64,000 nt of DNA from Pseudanabaena galeata CCNP1313 (GTDB lineage: Bacteria > Cyanobacteriota > Cyanobacteriia > Pseudanabaenales > Pseudanabaenaceae): NCBI RefSeq assembly GCF_029910235.1, contig NZ_CP112874.1, positions 4,454,501 through 4,518,500 of the forward strand. Reading direction: 5' to 3'. The position numbers and the translations under genes are program-made. The notes under the pieces are model-generated. The model saw only the letters and a program-made list of their open reading frames with translations, searched no databases and had not been told where the DNA came from. This document shows positions 15,906-21,918 of this stretch, piece by piece. Each line of letters begins with the position of its first letter. Within the stretch, counting starts at the first letter, position 1.

Positions 15906-17882
15906 ATGAACTTTTTGCTTCAAATTTACAATATACCCCGACGTTGGTGGACAGAATTTTCATTGCAAACCAAGCTAATGGCTTTGATTACGCTATTAGT
16001 TTCTTTGCTAATGAGTGCTGTCACCTTTTGGGCTGTTAACGATATTCAGACCGATGCTCGCCTCAATGATACGCGCTTTGGCAAAGATTTGGGGTTATTG
16101 CTGGCTGCTAATGTCGCCCCTTTAGTTGCAAAAAATGATCTTCAGGAAGTAACTCGCCTATCTAAAGAATTTTATGATAGTAGCTCTAGCATTCGCTACA
16201 TTCTCTATGCTGATCCTGATGGCGAGATTTTTTACGGGATTCCGTTTAACTCTAATGAAGTTAAAAATTCATTAAGTATTAGACGCAGAATTCAATTGCC
16301 TGAAGATCCTATGATGCGCCCCGATCGCCCTTTGGTCAGGCAGCATATTACGCCACAGGGTGAAGTTACGGACATATTTGTAAATTTGCAGCATGAAGGC
16401 AAATCGTTAGGGATCATTGCGATCGGCATTAATCCTAATCCCACGGCAGTAGCCTCTTCGAGTTTGACGTTAGATGTGACTACGGCTGTATTTGTATCGA
16501 TTTGGGCGATGGTAATTTTGGGGGCAGCATCCAACTCGGTGACGATTACGCGACCACTTCGGGAATTGGTGGCTGGGGTACAAAATATTGCTAGTGGCAA
16601 CTTTAAGCAACGTATCGACTTGCCCTTTGGTGGTGAATTGGGGGAATTAATTCGCAGCTTTAATGACATGGCGCAACGACTCAAAAAGTATGAAGAGCAG
16701 AATATTGAGGAATTGACCGCCGAAAAAGCCAAGCTAGAAACTCTAGTATCGACGATCGCTGATGGAGCATTGTTACTCGACTCCGACATGCGGATCGTGC
16801 TAGCCAATCCTGCGGCGATCAAGATTATGGGCTGGGATCAAGAGCCTGTGAAGGGAGACTGGAAGTGCAAAAGTATTTTGAATATTTTGCCTGAGCGACT
16901 CAGTGCTGATTTAGGGCGATCGCTGATGCAAATTGCCACAGGCGATCGGGAGGGCGGCGAATTTCGGATTATGGCTTCAGGCGATAAGGGTGATTCAGTG
17001 CTAGCCCATGCCTTTCGGATTTGGATTACTAGTGTCTTAAGTTCTAGTAATGCCATTAAGGGGATTGCGATTACGATTCAGGACATCACCCGTGAGGTGG
17101 AGCTAAATGCTGCTCAAAGTCGATTTATCAGCAATGTTAGTCATGAGTTACGCACGCCTTTATTTAATATCAAGTCCTTTATCGAGACTTTGCACGAGTA
17201 TGGTGATGAACTAAGCGAAGATCAGAAAAAAGAATTTCTCGGTACGGCAAATAACGAAACCGATCGCCTCACCCGTCTAGTTAATGATGTGCTGGATCTA
17301 TCTCGATTAGAGTCAGGTCGTCAATATCATTTCTCGGCGATCGATTTATCAGAGACCGTGGAGCAAACGGTCAGAACGTATAAACTCAATGCTTCATCTA
17401 AAGGTATTGAGCTGATTCATGAAATTGAGCCAGATTTGGAGAGAATCTGGGGCAATTACGATTTGATTTTGCAAGTGTTATCTAACTTAGTTGGCAATGC
17501 TCTCAAATTTACGGATATGGGCGGCAAAGTCACGATTCGGATTTATCCTTGGCAAGATCAAACCACCACTCAGCCCCATCGCACCGTCAACTATATCCGT
17601 GTCGAGGTGGAGGATACAGGACATGGTATTCCTGCCGAAGATTGCGATCGCGTGTTTGATCGTTTTTATCGGGTCGAGGATAAAGTGCATACTCTCGAAG
17701 GTACTGGTTTAGGTTTATCGATCGTCCGTAACATTATCGAAAAACATCACAGTGCGATTCATATCAAGAGTGAGGTTGGTGTGGGTACGACTTTCTGGTT
17801 TGACTTAAGCGTGTATCAAGATCGCTGTGAGTTACCAGTTATGGGCGCGATCGCTGCTCCTGTTCAGGCGATGACGGTTTAG
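15906..17882 (+). CDS. nblS: Sensor histidine kinase NblS (Hik33/DspA)
   Basis: The 658-residue kinase has the full NblS layout: membrane segments near 24-44 and 188-208 flanking a periplasmic sensor, HAMP at about 210-262, PAS at about 275-395, then the kinase core. The phospho-histidine is His413 in [17 protein letters not shown]; the ATP site has NLVGNALKF near 527-535, DTGHGIP and GTGLGLSIV. NblS is the conserved cyanobacterial kinase controlling high-light, cold and nutrient-stress genes and phycobilisome breakdown, usually through RpaB. It is 92 bases from a divergent unknown gene. The last 32 bases before its stop are repeated after the following Uma2 gene. Confidence 0.95.
   Translation: MNFLLQIYNIPRRWWTEFSLQTKLMALITLLVSLLMSAVTFWAVNDIQTDARLNDTRFGKDLGLLLAANVAPLVAKNDLQEVTRLSKEFYDSSSSIRYILYADPDGEIFYGIPFNSNEVKNSLSIRRRIQLPEDPMMRPDRPLVRQHITPQGEVTDIFVNLQHEGKSLGIIAIGINPNPTAVASSSLTLDVTTAVFVSIWAMVILGAASNSVTITRPLRELVAGVQNIASGNFKQRIDLPFGGELGELIRSFNDMAQRLKKYEEQNIEELTAEKAKLETLVSTIADGALLLDSDMRIVLANPAAIKIMGWDQEPVKGDWKCKSILNILPERLSADLGRSLMQIATGDREGGEFRIMASGDKGDSVLAHAFRIWITSVLSSSNAIKGIAITIQDITREVELNAAQSRFISNVSHELRTPLFNIKSFIETLHEYGDELSEDQKKEFLGTANNETDRLTRLVNDVLDLSRLESGRQYHFSAIDLSETVEQTVRTYKLNASSKGIELIHEIEPDLERIWGNYDLILQVLSNLVGNALKFTDMGGKVTIRIYPWQDQTTTQPHRTVNYIRVEVEDTGHGIPAEDCDRVFDRFYRVEDKVHTLEGTGLGLSIVRNIIEKHHSAIHIKSEVGVGTTFWFDLSVYQDRCELPVMGAIAAPVQAMTV
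17847..17878 (+). repeat. 32-bp direct repeat, copy in the nblS 3' end
   Basis: Bases 17847-17878 encode the last residues of NblS and recur exactly at 18570-18601. Similarity continues weakly beyond (TTAGGAA versus CTAGTAA). The two copies bracket the Uma2 gene. Confidence 0.9.
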
Positions 17883-17919
17883 GAATTGTGACTAAATGTT
17901 GTTTTAGGAGATTAAGTTG

Positions 17920-18540
17920 ATGATTGCTCAACCACAGTTAATTCAAGAAGATCATCAAATCATCATGTCTGCCGACGAGTATCTTGTTTGGGAAAGGCAG
18001 CAAGAAGAAAAATATGAATATGAAAACGGGAAAATCATTGCGATGACAGGCGGCACAATCCCTCATAGCCAAATTCCTCTTAATTTAGGAGCATTGCTGC
18101 TTGCTCATTTGCGTGGAAAAGGATGCAAGATCTCGATCAGCGATGCTAAAGTTCTTGTTAGATCTCGGAAATATTATTATCCTGATGTGGTTGTGTCCTG
18201 TGACGATCGTGATCGCTTCTCCCGTGATTTTTTGCAATATCCTGTGCTGATTGCGGAAGTTTTATCTCCTACCACCGAAGCACGCGATCGCGGTATTAAG
18301 CAGCAAAGTTATATGGCGATCGATACGCTGCAAGCCTATATCCTGATCGACTCAGAGCGTCCTAGTGTCGAAGTTTATCAAAGACATAGCGATCGTGCTT
18401 GGGAATATCAGTCTATAGCGATCGAGGAGACAACTTTTGAGCAAGATGATCCTCTTATTCATATAACTAGCATCGATCTCCAATTCCCTTTATCTGCCCT
18501 CTACGAAAATGTTGATTTTCTTGATAGCTCGCAACTGTAG
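17920..18540 (+). CDS. Uma2 family (DUF820) putative restriction-fold nuclease
   Basis: The 206-residue protein has the Uma2 pattern MSADEYLVWE, YYYPDVVVSCDD and VLIAEVLSPTTEARDRG. The ATG at 17920 lies nine bases after AGGAG. It is clearly diverged from the copy at 5566-6144. The gene sits between two exact 32-bp repeats of the nblS tail (17847-17878 and 18570-18601), so it probably arrived here as an insertion or by local duplication. Its function is unknown; the family has the PD-(D/E)XK fold. Confidence 0.85.
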   Translation: MIAQPQLIQEDHQIIMSADEYLVWERQQEEKYEYENGKIIAMTGGTIPHSQIPLNLGALLLAHLRGKGCKISISDAKVLVRSRKYYYPDVVVSCDDRDRFSRDFLQYPVLIAEVLSPTTEARDRGIKQQSYMAIDTLQAYILIDSERPSVEVYQRHSDRAWEYQSIAIEETTFEQDDPLIHITSIDLQFPLSALYENVDFLDSSQL

Positions 18541-18569
18541 AGTAGATATATTGTTCGTTAATCAAAATT

Positions 18570-18601
18570 GCGATCGCTGCTCCTGTTCAGGCGATGACGG
18601 T
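18570..18601 (+). repeat. 32-bp direct repeat, downstream copy
   Basis: An exact duplicate of 17847-17878. Here it is non-coding, and marks the right border of the inserted Uma2 segment. Confidence 0.9.
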
Positions 18602-18689
18602 CTAGTAATGTCGCTGTTGCCACAGCGATTATCTCTGGGTTAGAGCATTAGATCATGAAGTAATTCAAAGGTTACTCAGGAGTGAGATC

Positions 18690-18944
18690 ATGGAAGAGTC
18701 AGTAGTTTATCAAGAAATTTTGCGCGAAGGTTTAGCTAAAGGCAAAGCTGAGGGTTTAGCTAAAGGCAAAGCTGAAGGTTTAGCTAAAGGCAAGGTTGAA
18801 GCAACTAACCAAATTGCTATAAATATGTTGCATTCTAATATGTCTCCAGATTTAGTGGCTCAGTTAACTGGGCTAACCCTAAAACAAATCCAAAAACTAC
18901 AAAAAATTTCTACAAAGCAACCTCGGACAAAAAAATCACTTTAG
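18690..18944 (+). CDS. Rpn/DUF4351-like C-terminal fragment with GLAKGKAE repeats
   Basis: The 84-residue product begins MEESVVYQEILREG, then has three tandem GLAKGKAE-like octapeptides encoded by exact 24-base periods (18729-18800), then a helical end (IAINMLHSNMSPDLVAQLTGLTLKQIQKL). This matches the C-terminal tail of cyanobacterial Rpn-type (PD-(D/E)XK) transposase-like proteins; the nuclease domain is absent. AGGAG lies eight bases before the ATG, so it could still be translated. It is best read as a remnant of a longer gene, possibly kept as a small protein. Confidence 0.6.
   Translation: MEESVVYQEILREGLAKGKAEGLAKGKAEGLAKGKVEATNQIAINMLHSNMSPDLVAQLTGLTLKQIQKLQKISTKQPRTKKSL
18729..18800 (+). 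repeat. Three 24-bp tandem repeats in coding frame
   Basis: Units start at 18729, 18753 and 18777 and encode GLAKGKAE-like peptides. Repeat number is likely to vary between strains. Confidence 0.85.
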
Positions 18945-19131
18945 CTTCAACTGCTGAGATATTTTTAGTTCCCGATTTTCTCCGTTGGCGAATTGCTAAT
19001 AGCTCTTGCTGACACTACTTTTTGACTATTTTTCCTGCATCTGGATCTGGCAAAAGGTCTTTTAAGGATTCGATGACGGTTTCACGAATCACAGCTTTTA
19101 GTTCTTCAATTGTGAGATCTTTAACTTGCAT
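18945..19131 (-). pseudogene. Broken cyanobacterial antitoxin gene
   Basis: From ATG 19129-19131 the frame reads MQVKDLTIEELKAVIRETVI and on to a TAG at 19015-19017 after 38 codons. The same frame continues past the stop as QQELLAIRQRRKSGTKNIS, the usual second half of these small cyanobacterial antitoxins, then loses similarity where it meets the end of the Rpn-like fragment. So it is an antitoxin disabled by an internal stop and a lost tail. No partner toxin is adjacent. The 38-residue peptide might still be made. Confidence 0.6.
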
Positions 19132-19238
19132 GGTAGTTATTACACAATTAGGGTTATTATCTGATTATAATCTAATACCTATGCATCTCAACGGTATTAG
19201 CATAGATACCTATAAATGAGTGTTTCTCCACAAATCGA

Positions 19239-19889
19239 ATGAATAAGAGAAGAATTAGAGTGAGTCCCAACTATTTGCTAGAACCAATAAGTGGAGAAGT
19301 TTTCTTTTTTGATAAGGTTCTAGACAAAGAGGTACTTAAGTTTAATTGTCAAGATAAAAAAGGATCTAGATTAATTTTTGAAGATCGGATGCAGGGATGG
19401 TTTTTCGACCCAGCTCTTAACCTTGTTGATGATATCAATTCGTCAGTTGTAGCTGTTCACATTGTAACACCTCTAATTGAAGCTTTAAGGTGCTACATAT
19501 TAGGTAAAAAACCTATTGCAAGAGAATCTAGTACCTTCTTTAAAGAGCAAGCTGACGAAATCTTTCCATTATTACAAAATAATGAAGTTGCTCGAAATCT
19601 TTTGTATAAAGGTGTCCGATGTGGTTTTGCTCATCAAGGTTTTCTCAAAGATGATGACGATGCTTACAATATATTGATTTTATCAGAAGTGTCAGATAAA
19701 CCAATTATATTTGATGGTCAAGTAATGACTATTCATGCTCGCAAGTATGTTGAAAAAATAAATGAGGCTTATCAAAGTTACTTCAATACTCTAGATAGAG
19801 ACGCTGACAAGTTGAACAAGTTTTATGATATGTGGAAACATCAATGGAGAATGAAAAGAAGGCATTTGATTGAAATTTCTGGCACATAA
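19239..19889 (+). CDS. Hypothetical protein, probably acquired
   Basis: The 216-residue protein (MNKRRIRVSPNYLLEPISG) has no domain I recognise. It is soluble, aromatic-rich and mixed alpha/beta, ending in a basic helix (MWKHQWRMKRRHLIE). A conserved-looking patch is YKGVRCGFAHQGFLKDDDD, reminiscent of HEPN-like or abortive-infection proteins in which an Arg/His motif is catalytic, but this is only a resemblance. The gene has no HIP1 octamer and is AT-rich, unlike its surroundings, so recent transfer is likely. The ribosome site is weak. Confidence 0.7.
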   Translation: MNKRRIRVSPNYLLEPISGEVFFFDKVLDKEVLKFNCQDKKGSRLIFEDRMQGWFFDPALNLVDDINSSVVAVHIVTPLIEALRCYILGKKPIARESSTFFKEQADEIFPLLQNNEVARNLLYKGVRCGFAHQGFLKDDDDAYNILILSEVSDKPIIFDGQVMTIHARKYVEKINEAYQSYFNTLDRDADKLNKFYDMWKHQWRMKRRHLIEISGT

Positions 19890-19920
19890 ACTTAATAGAC
19901 AATATTGGAAACTGACTTAT

Positions 19921-20073
19921 ATGGATAAAGATATTATTCTCACTATTATATTCTTAACCATTTTTTTTGCTGTGATTGGAGGCATAATGTTAAGACTTAG
20001 TCTTAGTCCATCTAATTTTTTTATTGGGCTTCTATTTGTTTGCTTTATTTTGACTTTACTAAATCATCGATAA
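19921..20073 (+). CDS. Small two-helix membrane protein
   Basis: From ATG 19921 a 50-residue peptide has two hydrophobic helices (IILTIIFLTIFFAVIGGIML and FFIGLLFVCFILTLL) separated by a short polar loop. It follows the HIP1-free hypothetical gene by 31 bases and shares its AT-rich composition. It might be a small membrane effector of a two-gene unit, but there is no homology evidence. Confidence 0.4.
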   Translation: MDKDIILTIIFLTIFFAVIGGIMLRLSLSPSNFFIGLLFVCFILTLLNHR

Positions 20074-20300
20074 GTTCGCTAAACTTAGTTGAAGCCTCTC
20101 TACAAATTACTTAGGATTGCAATATAAAAACAGCAATTACAAACTCACAATTGTTAGTTTGTAACAGTAAAACTTAGCAATACTTTCTTTGAGATACAAA
20201 TAGAAGAGGAACAGAGGAACTTTAGCAATCGGAATGAGATTTACAAAAAATCCCAAGCTAGGCTCTAGCTAATAAAAAGTAAATATACGGAGGATTTAAG

Positions 20301-20555
20301 ATGGATGCGATGACAACAGAGCAAGCAAGTCATGACTTAGATGGTTTGATCGATCGCGTGATTGATAACGTGCAACCAACAATTATTTGTAATGACAAAG
20401 GCAACAAAGCTATTTTAATTTCGCTAGACGAATTTTCATCATGGCAAGAAACTTTGTATTTATTATCAAATCCTGTTAATGCCAAGCGTCTTCTTGGCTC
20501 AATTCAATCAGCTAAATCTGGCAAAGTTGCTGAGAGAGAACTAATCGCAGAATGA
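20301..20555 (+). CDS. yefM: YefM/Phd-family antitoxin
   Basis: The 84-residue protein has the Phd/YefM pattern MDAMTTEQASHDLDGLIDRV...NKGNKAILISLDEFSSWQETLYLLSNP. GGAGG lies about eight bases before the ATG. Such antitoxins bind their own operator and block an adjacent YoeB RNase toxin. The stop overlaps a new ATG (ATGA, 20552-20555) exactly where yoeB should begin, but the toxin is reduced to 22 codons. The antitoxin itself looks complete. Confidence 0.85.
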   Translation: MDAMTTEQASHDLDGLIDRVIDNVQPTIICNDKGNKAILISLDEFSSWQETLYLLSNPVNAKRLLGSIQSAKSGKVAERELIAE

Positions 20556-20620
20556 AGCTCATATTTACTTCGGCTGACAGTATAGTTATTGTGGGTTGTC
20601 GATTTCATTACAAAGACTAG
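20552..20620 (+). pseudogene. YoeB toxin reduced to its two ends by an in-frame deletion
   Basis: The frame reads MKLIFTSADS then IVIVGCRFHYKD and stops. YoeB toxins begin MKLIFT and end near LLIVSCRYHY, so about 60 internal codons are missing while both ends remain in frame. The catalytic centre is mostly gone, so no toxin activity is expected. The ATGA overlap with yefM is intact, showing the ancestral operon layout. Confidence 0.75.
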
Positions 20621-20692
20621 ACCTTTTCGGGGGTATCGTTTATTAAAGACTCAACTCATCAGATTATTGTCAACTGCTAACTATCGAAATCT

Positions 20693-21457
20693 ATGTCGAT
20701 CGCCCCAATACTTAAAGCTGAAAACATCTCGAAATCCTTTGGCGGCATTCATGCCGTAAGCAATGCCCGCATTGAAGTACCCGCAGGAAGCATTACAGGA
20801 TTAATTGGTCCCAATGGGGCAGGAAAAACCACATTTTTTGGATTGTTATCTAACTTTCTGAAGCCCGATCGCGGCACAGTACAGTTTGACGGAATGCCAA
20901 TTCAAGGCAAACCACCCCATGCGATCGCCAAACTTGGCATGATTCGCACCTTTCAAGTACCGCGAGTCCTGTCGCGATTATCAGTGCTAGAAAATATGTT
21001 GCTAGCCGCACAGAATCAAGTGGGCGAAAAGTTTTGGAATACTTGGTTTCAGGGTCAAAAAATTGCAGTGCAAGAACGGGAAAATCGCGAGAAAGCGAGA
21101 CATATTCTTGAATCAGTCGGCTTAATCAGGATGGCGGATGACTATGCGGGAAGTCTGTCGGGTGGTCAGCGTAAGTTATTAGAAATTGCCCGCGCCTTAA
21201 TGACTGACCCCAAATTAATCTTGCTCGATGAACCTGCGGCGGGGGTCAATCCTGCTTTGATAGAAGAGATTTGTAGCCTGATCCACAAGTTAAATCAAGA
21301 AGGCTTGAGCTTTTTGATTATCGAACACAATATGGATGTGATTATGTCCCTATGCGATCGCGTCTGGGTCTTAGCCGAAGGTCACAATCTCGCTGATGGC
21401 TCACCCGCAGAAATTCAAAGCGATCCTAAAGTTTTAGAAGCATATTTAGGCTCATAG
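20693..21457 (+). CDS. LivG/NatA-like ABC transporter ATPase, orphan
   Basis: The 254-residue ATPase has Walker A GPNGAGKTT, signature LSGGQRKLLEIARAL, Walker B LILLDEPAAGVNP and the switch histidine IIEHNMDVIM. The PAAGVNP form and the ending DPKVLEAYLG are typical of the LivG/BraF branch for branched-chain or neutral amino acids (NatA in cyanobacteria). No permease, binding protein or second ATPase is adjacent, so it must work with subunits encoded elsewhere. It sits between two toxin-antitoxin loci. Confidence 0.85.
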   Translation: MSIAPILKAENISKSFGGIHAVSNARIEVPAGSITGLIGPNGAGKTTFFGLLSNFLKPDRGTVQFDGMPIQGKPPHAIAKLGMIRTFQVPRVLSRLSVLENMLLAAQNQVGEKFWNTWFQGQKIAVQERENREKARHILESVGLIRMADDYAGSLSGGQRKLLEIARALMTDPKLILLDEPAAGVNPALIEEICSLIHKLNQEGLSFLIIEHNMDVIMSLCDRVWVLAEGHNLADGSPAEIQSDPKVLEAYLGS

Positions 21458-21460
21458 CTT

Positions 21461-21718
21461 TTACTGATAAACATCTCTACGATGACCAATTTTTAAGACC
21501 AAAATCAGTAGTTGATTATCCTGAATGCGGTAAATGATGCGATAGTCACCAACTCGAATTCGGTAAAGGTCATCCTCTCCTGATAGTTTGACCACGCCAT
21601 CGGGACGAGGCGAATCGACTAAAGCGTCAATTTTTGATTTTATGCGTTGTTGTTCTTGAGGAGATAAAGCCTTTAACTGCTTAGCGGCTGGCTTAGCAAA
21701 TTCGATGTAATAAGTCAT
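21461..21718 (-). CDS. RelE/ParE-family toxin
   Basis: The 85-residue toxin starts at ATG 21716-21718 (MTYYIEFAKPAAKQLKAL), which overlaps the antitoxin stop by four bases. It has the RelE-type end LYRIRVGDYRIIYRI...LKIGHRRDVY, with basic and tyrosine residues that cleave mRNA in the ribosome. The length is typical and no damage is visible. A longer frame of ten codons upstream lies inside the antitoxin gene and is less likely. Confidence 0.88.
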   Translation of the reverse strand: MTYYIEFAKPAAKQLKALSPQEQQRIKSKIDALVDSPRPDGVVKLSGEDDLYRIRVGDYRIIYRIQDNQLLILVLKIGHRRDVYQ

Positions 21719-21918
21719 ACACCGATTTCCACTTTTAACTCTTCCCAAGAAATAGTGCCTTCAGTCTCAATAGTTGCTAAGGCAGCATTAGCATCTGCGA
21801 TATCTTCATAGTCTTCAAGCTGTTGATTTTTGAGTGCGTGCAGAAAATCAATAACTTTTACAATTAGAGCATCAGGCACTTCACTTAACTCTTCAATTAA
21901 TCGCTCTTTGAGAGTCAT
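21715..21918 (-). CDS. Antitoxin partner of RelE-type toxin
   Basis: The 67-residue acidic protein (MTLKERLIEELSEVPDALIVKVIDFLHALK) precedes and overlaps the toxin gene, the standard order for type II modules. GAGG lies six bases before the ATG. It has the amphipathic helices and acidic tail of this cyanobacterial antitoxin group. It probably represses its own promoter in the short gap to the DUF3326 gene. Confidence 0.82.
   Translation of the reverse strand: MTLKERLIEELSEVPDALIVKVIDFLHALKNQQLEDYEDIADANAALATIETEGTISWEELKVEIGV

Follow-up and report, generated by a model that had tools for sequence, protein, structure and literature searches.

An intact YefM-family antitoxin beside a collapsed yoeB frame in Pseudanabaena galeata

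How did an intact YefM-family antitoxin gene of Pseudanabaena galeata come to be followed by a frame of only 22 codons, and has the antitoxin acquired a new role since? We studied this locus within a window of 64,000 nucleotides (the whole stretch of DNA that was analysed) and in the genomes of its relatives. Our reading, held with a probability of about 0.87, is that a yefM-yoeB type II toxin-antitoxin (TA) operon has decayed here: the YoeB body was lost in frame, and the antitoxin was left intact and without a new role. The initial annotation had named the locus a YefM antitoxin with a fossil YoeB toxin and had placed it at coordinates that proved exact; full-length syntenic relatives bear out the name. 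The features of the locus are as follows.

20256–20270, no strand: weak operator-like palindrome AGCTA-N5-TAGCT, 31–45 nt upstream of the antitoxin
20289–20294, plus strand: putative Shine-Dalgarno-like GGAGGA ahead of the antitoxin ATG, read from the sequence
20301–20555, plus strand: Phd/YefM-family antitoxin, 84 aa, frame intact (Pfam PF02604, PDB 2a6q_A, orthologues)
20552–20620, plus strand: fossil yoeB, a 22-codon frame, formerly 86 codons (alignment to syntenic yoeB of G012, G003 and G019)
20552–20568, plus strand: left remnant, yoeB start, overlapping the antitoxin stop (ATGA); 16/17 nt identical to G012
20569–20575, plus strand: junction of 7 bp, neither deletion side confidently matched (in G012, G003 and G010, BLAST alignment stops at 20568 and restarts at 20576)
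20576–20620, plus strand: right remnant, final 14 yoeB codons and stop; 45/45 nt identical to G012
20693–21457, plus strand: ABC-transporter ATPase gene, the downstream synteny anchor (Pfam ABC_tran; present in 25/26 genus genomes)

The antitoxin and what is left of its toxin

The antitoxin is intact over its 84 codons, as had been annotated, and scores 46.6 bits against Pfam PhdYeFM_antitox (PF02604), for which the cut-off is 29.8. Its best solved relative is E. coli YefM (PDB 2a6q_A), which it matches over residues 6–82 with an E value of 4.7e-14, and in the E. coli YefM-YoeB system (2A6Q) the toxin likewise comes after the antitoxin; the difference is that the P. galeata toxin has collapsed to 22 codons and has lost residues 46 and 65. 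Antitoxin orthologues with at least 80% identity number 13 copies in 12 of the 26 genus genomes, P. galeata included, and a full 86-aa YoeB follows the same 4-base overlap in 8 of these 13. The nearest point of comparison is Phormidium tenue FACHB-1050 (G012; L010, L134), which shares with P. galeata the overlap, an antitoxin of 95% identity, the 3′ end of yoeB and the downstream ABC-ATPase gene in synteny; unlike P. galeata, it has an intact 86-aa toxin.

The ATGA at 20552–20555 is the overlap of antitoxin stop and toxin start, the same as in intact relatives, and both YoeB ends, which the initial annotation had already recognised, align to the gene of P. tenue. For the final 45 nt of that gene, the best match elsewhere in the window reaches only 26/45 on the plus strand and 27/45 on the minus strand. 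Between the two matched blocks lie 199 bp in P. tenue and 7 bp in P. galeata; hence the net loss is 192 bp, or 64 codons, in frame, so that the annotated in-frame loss stands and its count of about 60 codons is revised to 64. What is left of yoeB is codons 1 to 7 or 8 together with codons 73–86. The 7 junction bases match either side poorly, so the loss need not have been one clean deletion. Joining of the remnants by recombination between paralogues was also considered and was rejected, as a search across the P. galeata genome found no other copy of the remnant.

The 86-aa YoeB of P. tenue and E. coli YoeB give a gapless alignment that spans all 84 residues of the latter (E 4.4e-37); it places residues 46 and 65 in the lost part, while residues 83–84 are kept. 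We take E46, R65, H83 and Y84 to be the catalytic residues of YoeB, and since two of these are gone, the anatomy of the remnant would exclude an active YoeB, and RNase activity has presumably been lost. The 22-aa peptide searched alone against Pfam matched no family. It is very improbable that a full-length yoeB is really present and was missed through a sequencing or assembly artefact. The deletion is seen in one genome only, and a search for the same deletion in a second strain among the relatives found none, which by comparison alone leaves room for an assembly error; however, the stretch is single-copy in the P. galeata genome, the assembly of 6 contigs is listed as 100% complete, and the same class of decay occurs in relatives.

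Repeated decay of the module in relatives

With the P. tenue antitoxin as query (E 1e-22) we searched 388 genomes of the class and classified each locus by reading, which gave 26 subfamily copies in 25 genomes. Both genes are intact in 11 of the 26 (G012, G010, G019, G020 contig 51, G006, G021, G013, G011, G061, G341 and G241), and the full-length versions that the initial annotation had suggested looking for in close strains were thus found, with an 86-codon YoeB, in Pseudanabaena relatives. A further 7 copies combine a full-length antitoxin with a broken toxin: besides the P. galeata locus (G000), yoeB has a stop in codon 72 in G003 and in codon 15 in G126, about 35 codons remain in G196, homology ends at codon 71 in G068 and at codon 55 in G056, and in P. 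mucicola FACHB-723 (G018; L013, L137) the gene has collapsed in frame to 9 codons, with codons 1–5 joined to codons 83–86. The antitoxin C-terminus is damaged or replaced and the toxin lost or broken in another 7 (G020 contig 3, G001, G347, G265, G037, G219 and G093), and in one copy (G031) an open toxin stands beside an antitoxin with a stop, which counts against a strict toxin-first rule. Outside the 26-copy set, Dolichospermum UHCC 0259 (L139) has an 84-aa antitoxin and a yoeB reduced to a short start. As a separate observation, the antitoxin of Anabaena UHCC 0187 (L141), whose sequence is the same as that of G219 (L158), has an internal in-frame loss, keeps the ALIEE tail and the ATGA overlap, and is followed by 14 recognisable yoeB codons.

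The count of 7 toxin-only against 1 antitoxin-only losses (two-sided p = 0.07) makes an excess of toxin-only losses suggestive, and this asymmetry is biased because the copies were collected with an antitoxin query. In a reverse toxin search of the 26 genus genomes, 9 of the matches listed had at least 81% identity and each lies beside an antitoxin.

The copy of P. mucicola FACHB-723 closely resembles that of P. galeata in kind, since there too an orphan antitoxin stands in synteny beside a yoeB that collapsed in frame, and differs in its breakpoints and in having only 9 codons left; these differences, with 5 + 4 codons kept, indicate a collapse independent of that in P. galeata. Its junction shows, by eye, an ATTT common to both sides in comparison with G019. 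This second in-frame collapse, along with the in-frame loss and the keeping of both ends in P. galeata, is what might favour a functional microprotein made from two YoeB ends, for example as a decoy ligand of the antitoxin. We consider this barely credible, because an in-frame outcome is expected one third of the time, the two remnants have almost nothing in common, and the other broken copies show stops or truncations instead of collapses.

The antitoxin of P. galeata differs from that of P. tenue by 19 synonymous and 4 nonsynonymous changes (dS 0.467 and dN 0.021, both pairwise values only). One of the nonsynonymous changes lies in residues 1–58 and three in residues 59–84. Continuing selection on the antitoxin could explain this strong synonymous bias; nevertheless, most of the divergence may predate the deletion, and the bias may mostly reflect the era when the toxin was present. 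The C-terminal half of YefM is the toxin-binding part; in passages of one report the toxin-binding region of E. coli YefM is given as residues 51–89 (PMC7354431). The tail of the P. galeata antitoxin carries E83A, at a position that is otherwise invariant among 10 other comparable genus copies, and within the genus changes at the otherwise invariant residues 83 (P. galeata) and 84 (G003) occur in toxin-broken copies only. Of 11 intact pairs, 10 retain the EE tail, as do 4 of the 7 full-length antitoxins whose toxin is broken; this comparison took in 18 of the 26 copies, with the 8 damaged or replaced antitoxins and L139 omitted. Drift of the antitoxin tail after toxin loss was dropped as an explanation, since this wider set gave no significant difference (Fisher p = 0.25).

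Possible roles of the remaining antitoxin

The initial annotation had proposed that the antitoxin may now act as an orphan repressor or may counter a distant toxin, and neither proposal gained support. That the antitoxin now serves solely to bind DNA and repress promoters, its own or others, is unlikely, although its N-terminal half is highly conserved, as the single nonsynonymous change over residues 1–58 indicates, and the palindrome stands upstream. The class of this palindrome, which is the sole operator-like one there, occurs 13 times in the genome compared with 12 times for the reversed control and is therefore not above chance; only 3 of the 13 genus copies, P. galeata included, have the palindrome in exact form, and the upstream regions vary among genomes. 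The operator search upstream of the 13 copies together with the genome-wide count yielded no signal over the control. Moreover, YoeB normally strengthens DNA binding by YefM, and hence a lone antitoxin would be a weak repressor.

For the distant toxin, at least 8 other YoeB frames above the family cut-off and without internal stops are present in P. galeata. The intact YoeB closest to the lost cognate is 62% identical to it and comes with an antitoxin of its own, the nearest antitoxin paralogue is only 40% identical, and a close cognate toxin sought elsewhere in the P. galeata genome was not found. With partners this distant, the sequences do not suggest cross-neutralisation. Two other loci of the same genome lie outside the window. 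At G000:C1:4402077-4402577 an intact 88-aa PhdYeFM antitoxin is accompanied by a YoeB that is split between reading frames, and at G000:C1:1980343-1980549 a YoeB frame without its N-terminus lies, by eye, beside transposase-like sequence, with no antitoxin seen upstream.

The toxin to be countered could also come from outside: as an anti-addiction guard, the antitoxin would have been kept to neutralise related YoeB toxins circulating among cyanobacteria and so to block post-segregational killing. Such a role is discussed for orphan antitoxins in parts of two reports (PMC7192599, PMC7354431). Several Pseudanabaena species carry intact pairs of this subfamily, some of them at non-syntenic places, and a close relative of the antitoxin occurs in Dolichospermum, which together indicate that the module moves; in G020, moreover, an antitoxin without an adjacent toxin coexists with an intact pair. 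Nonetheless we judge a guard role quite unlikely. Among 72,556 plasmid records the antitoxin is absent at 60% identity or above, and the YoeB relatives there reach at most 70.7% identity among the matches listed, those being non-cyanobacterial; phage relatives of the toxin stay below 60%, a search of plasmid DNA with the locus gave zero matches, and none was found in viral contigs. Furthermore, the antitoxin is damaged alongside the toxin in 7 of the 26 copies, as plain decay predicts. The wider form of the idea is that toxin loss recurs in this YefM subfamily in cyanobacteria and that the surviving antitoxin is selected as immunity when further copies of that mobile module arrive. In our view this is distinctly improbable; if true, lineages with an orphan antitoxin and lineages with the intact module would persist side by side within one genus, as a toxin/immunity polymorphism.

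The locus lies between a sensor kinase gene (product assigned by eye), which ends at 17882, and the ABC-ATPase gene at 20693. What this gap contains varies greatly among relatives: the sequences homologous to 17882 and 20704 are separated by only about 126 bp in G014. An Rpn-like fragment lies upstream of the antitoxin in P. galeata and downstream of it in G019 and G020. The gap of 17882–20693 looks like a hot spot at which small modules (Uma2, the Rpn fragment and TA) insert. The fragment in P. galeata, named Rpn-like by eye, is C-terminal and lies at 18690–18944; a 281-aa Rpn-like version directly follows the antitoxin of G020 contig 3 (L034/L140), whose own C-terminus is replaced. The gap also holds a 216-aa ORF at 19239–19889 with zero Pfam matches at E 10. 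Beyond the ABC-ATPase gene, on the minus strand at 21461–21918, we observed a ParE toxin (56.7 bits) and, upstream of it, a 67-aa partner for which no Pfam family scored above cut-off; G012 and G002 have another YefM-YoeB at the position of this pair.

In-place loss of the toxin and its meaning

In the explanation that we prefer, 64 codons were lost in frame from within yoeB, in one event or in several steps with an equal net result, which removed the YoeB body and left the first 7–8 codons and the last 14 codons with the stop. The yoeB start codon is kept because it overlaps the antitoxin stop. Translation of the antitoxin probably continues, perhaps under weak autoregulation, and it has no working cognate toxin in the genome. 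Most likely, loss of the toxin was neutral or mildly favoured and the antitoxin is a temporary survivor heading for decay. A new role for it is possible but unsupported, and we infer that there is none.

With an intact frame, an adjacent toxin degraded in place and no close cognate in the genome, the antitoxin has the marks of an orphan type II antitoxin. Orphan antitoxins are abundant: in Klebsiella they number 2253 occurrences (PMC7192599) across 259 genomes (PMC7354431), about 39% of them in the same toxin-side context as a valid pair (PMC7192599), and in E. coli, too, they are a common finding (PMC10790755). Anti-addiction, cross-talk and regulation have been proposed as their roles. The P. 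galeata antitoxin shares with orphans described for Klebsiella (PMC7192599) and E. coli (PMC10790755) the original gene context and the want of a functional toxin, and differs from them in its cyanobacterial host and in a short toxin remnant with both ends recognisable. In literature on orphan antitoxins, YefM/YoeB, and cyanobacterial and Pseudanabaena TA systems, judged by titles, no title describes this locus.

Taken alone, the P. galeata locus alters no view of toxin-antitoxin biology: it is ordinary toxin pseudogenisation in place, one of many cases in this YefM subfamily. It provides a clean, synteny-backed example of in-place toxin loss, and it belongs with its relatives to a small series for comparison, 11 copies intact and 15 decayed, that could serve to test what becomes of orphan antitoxins.
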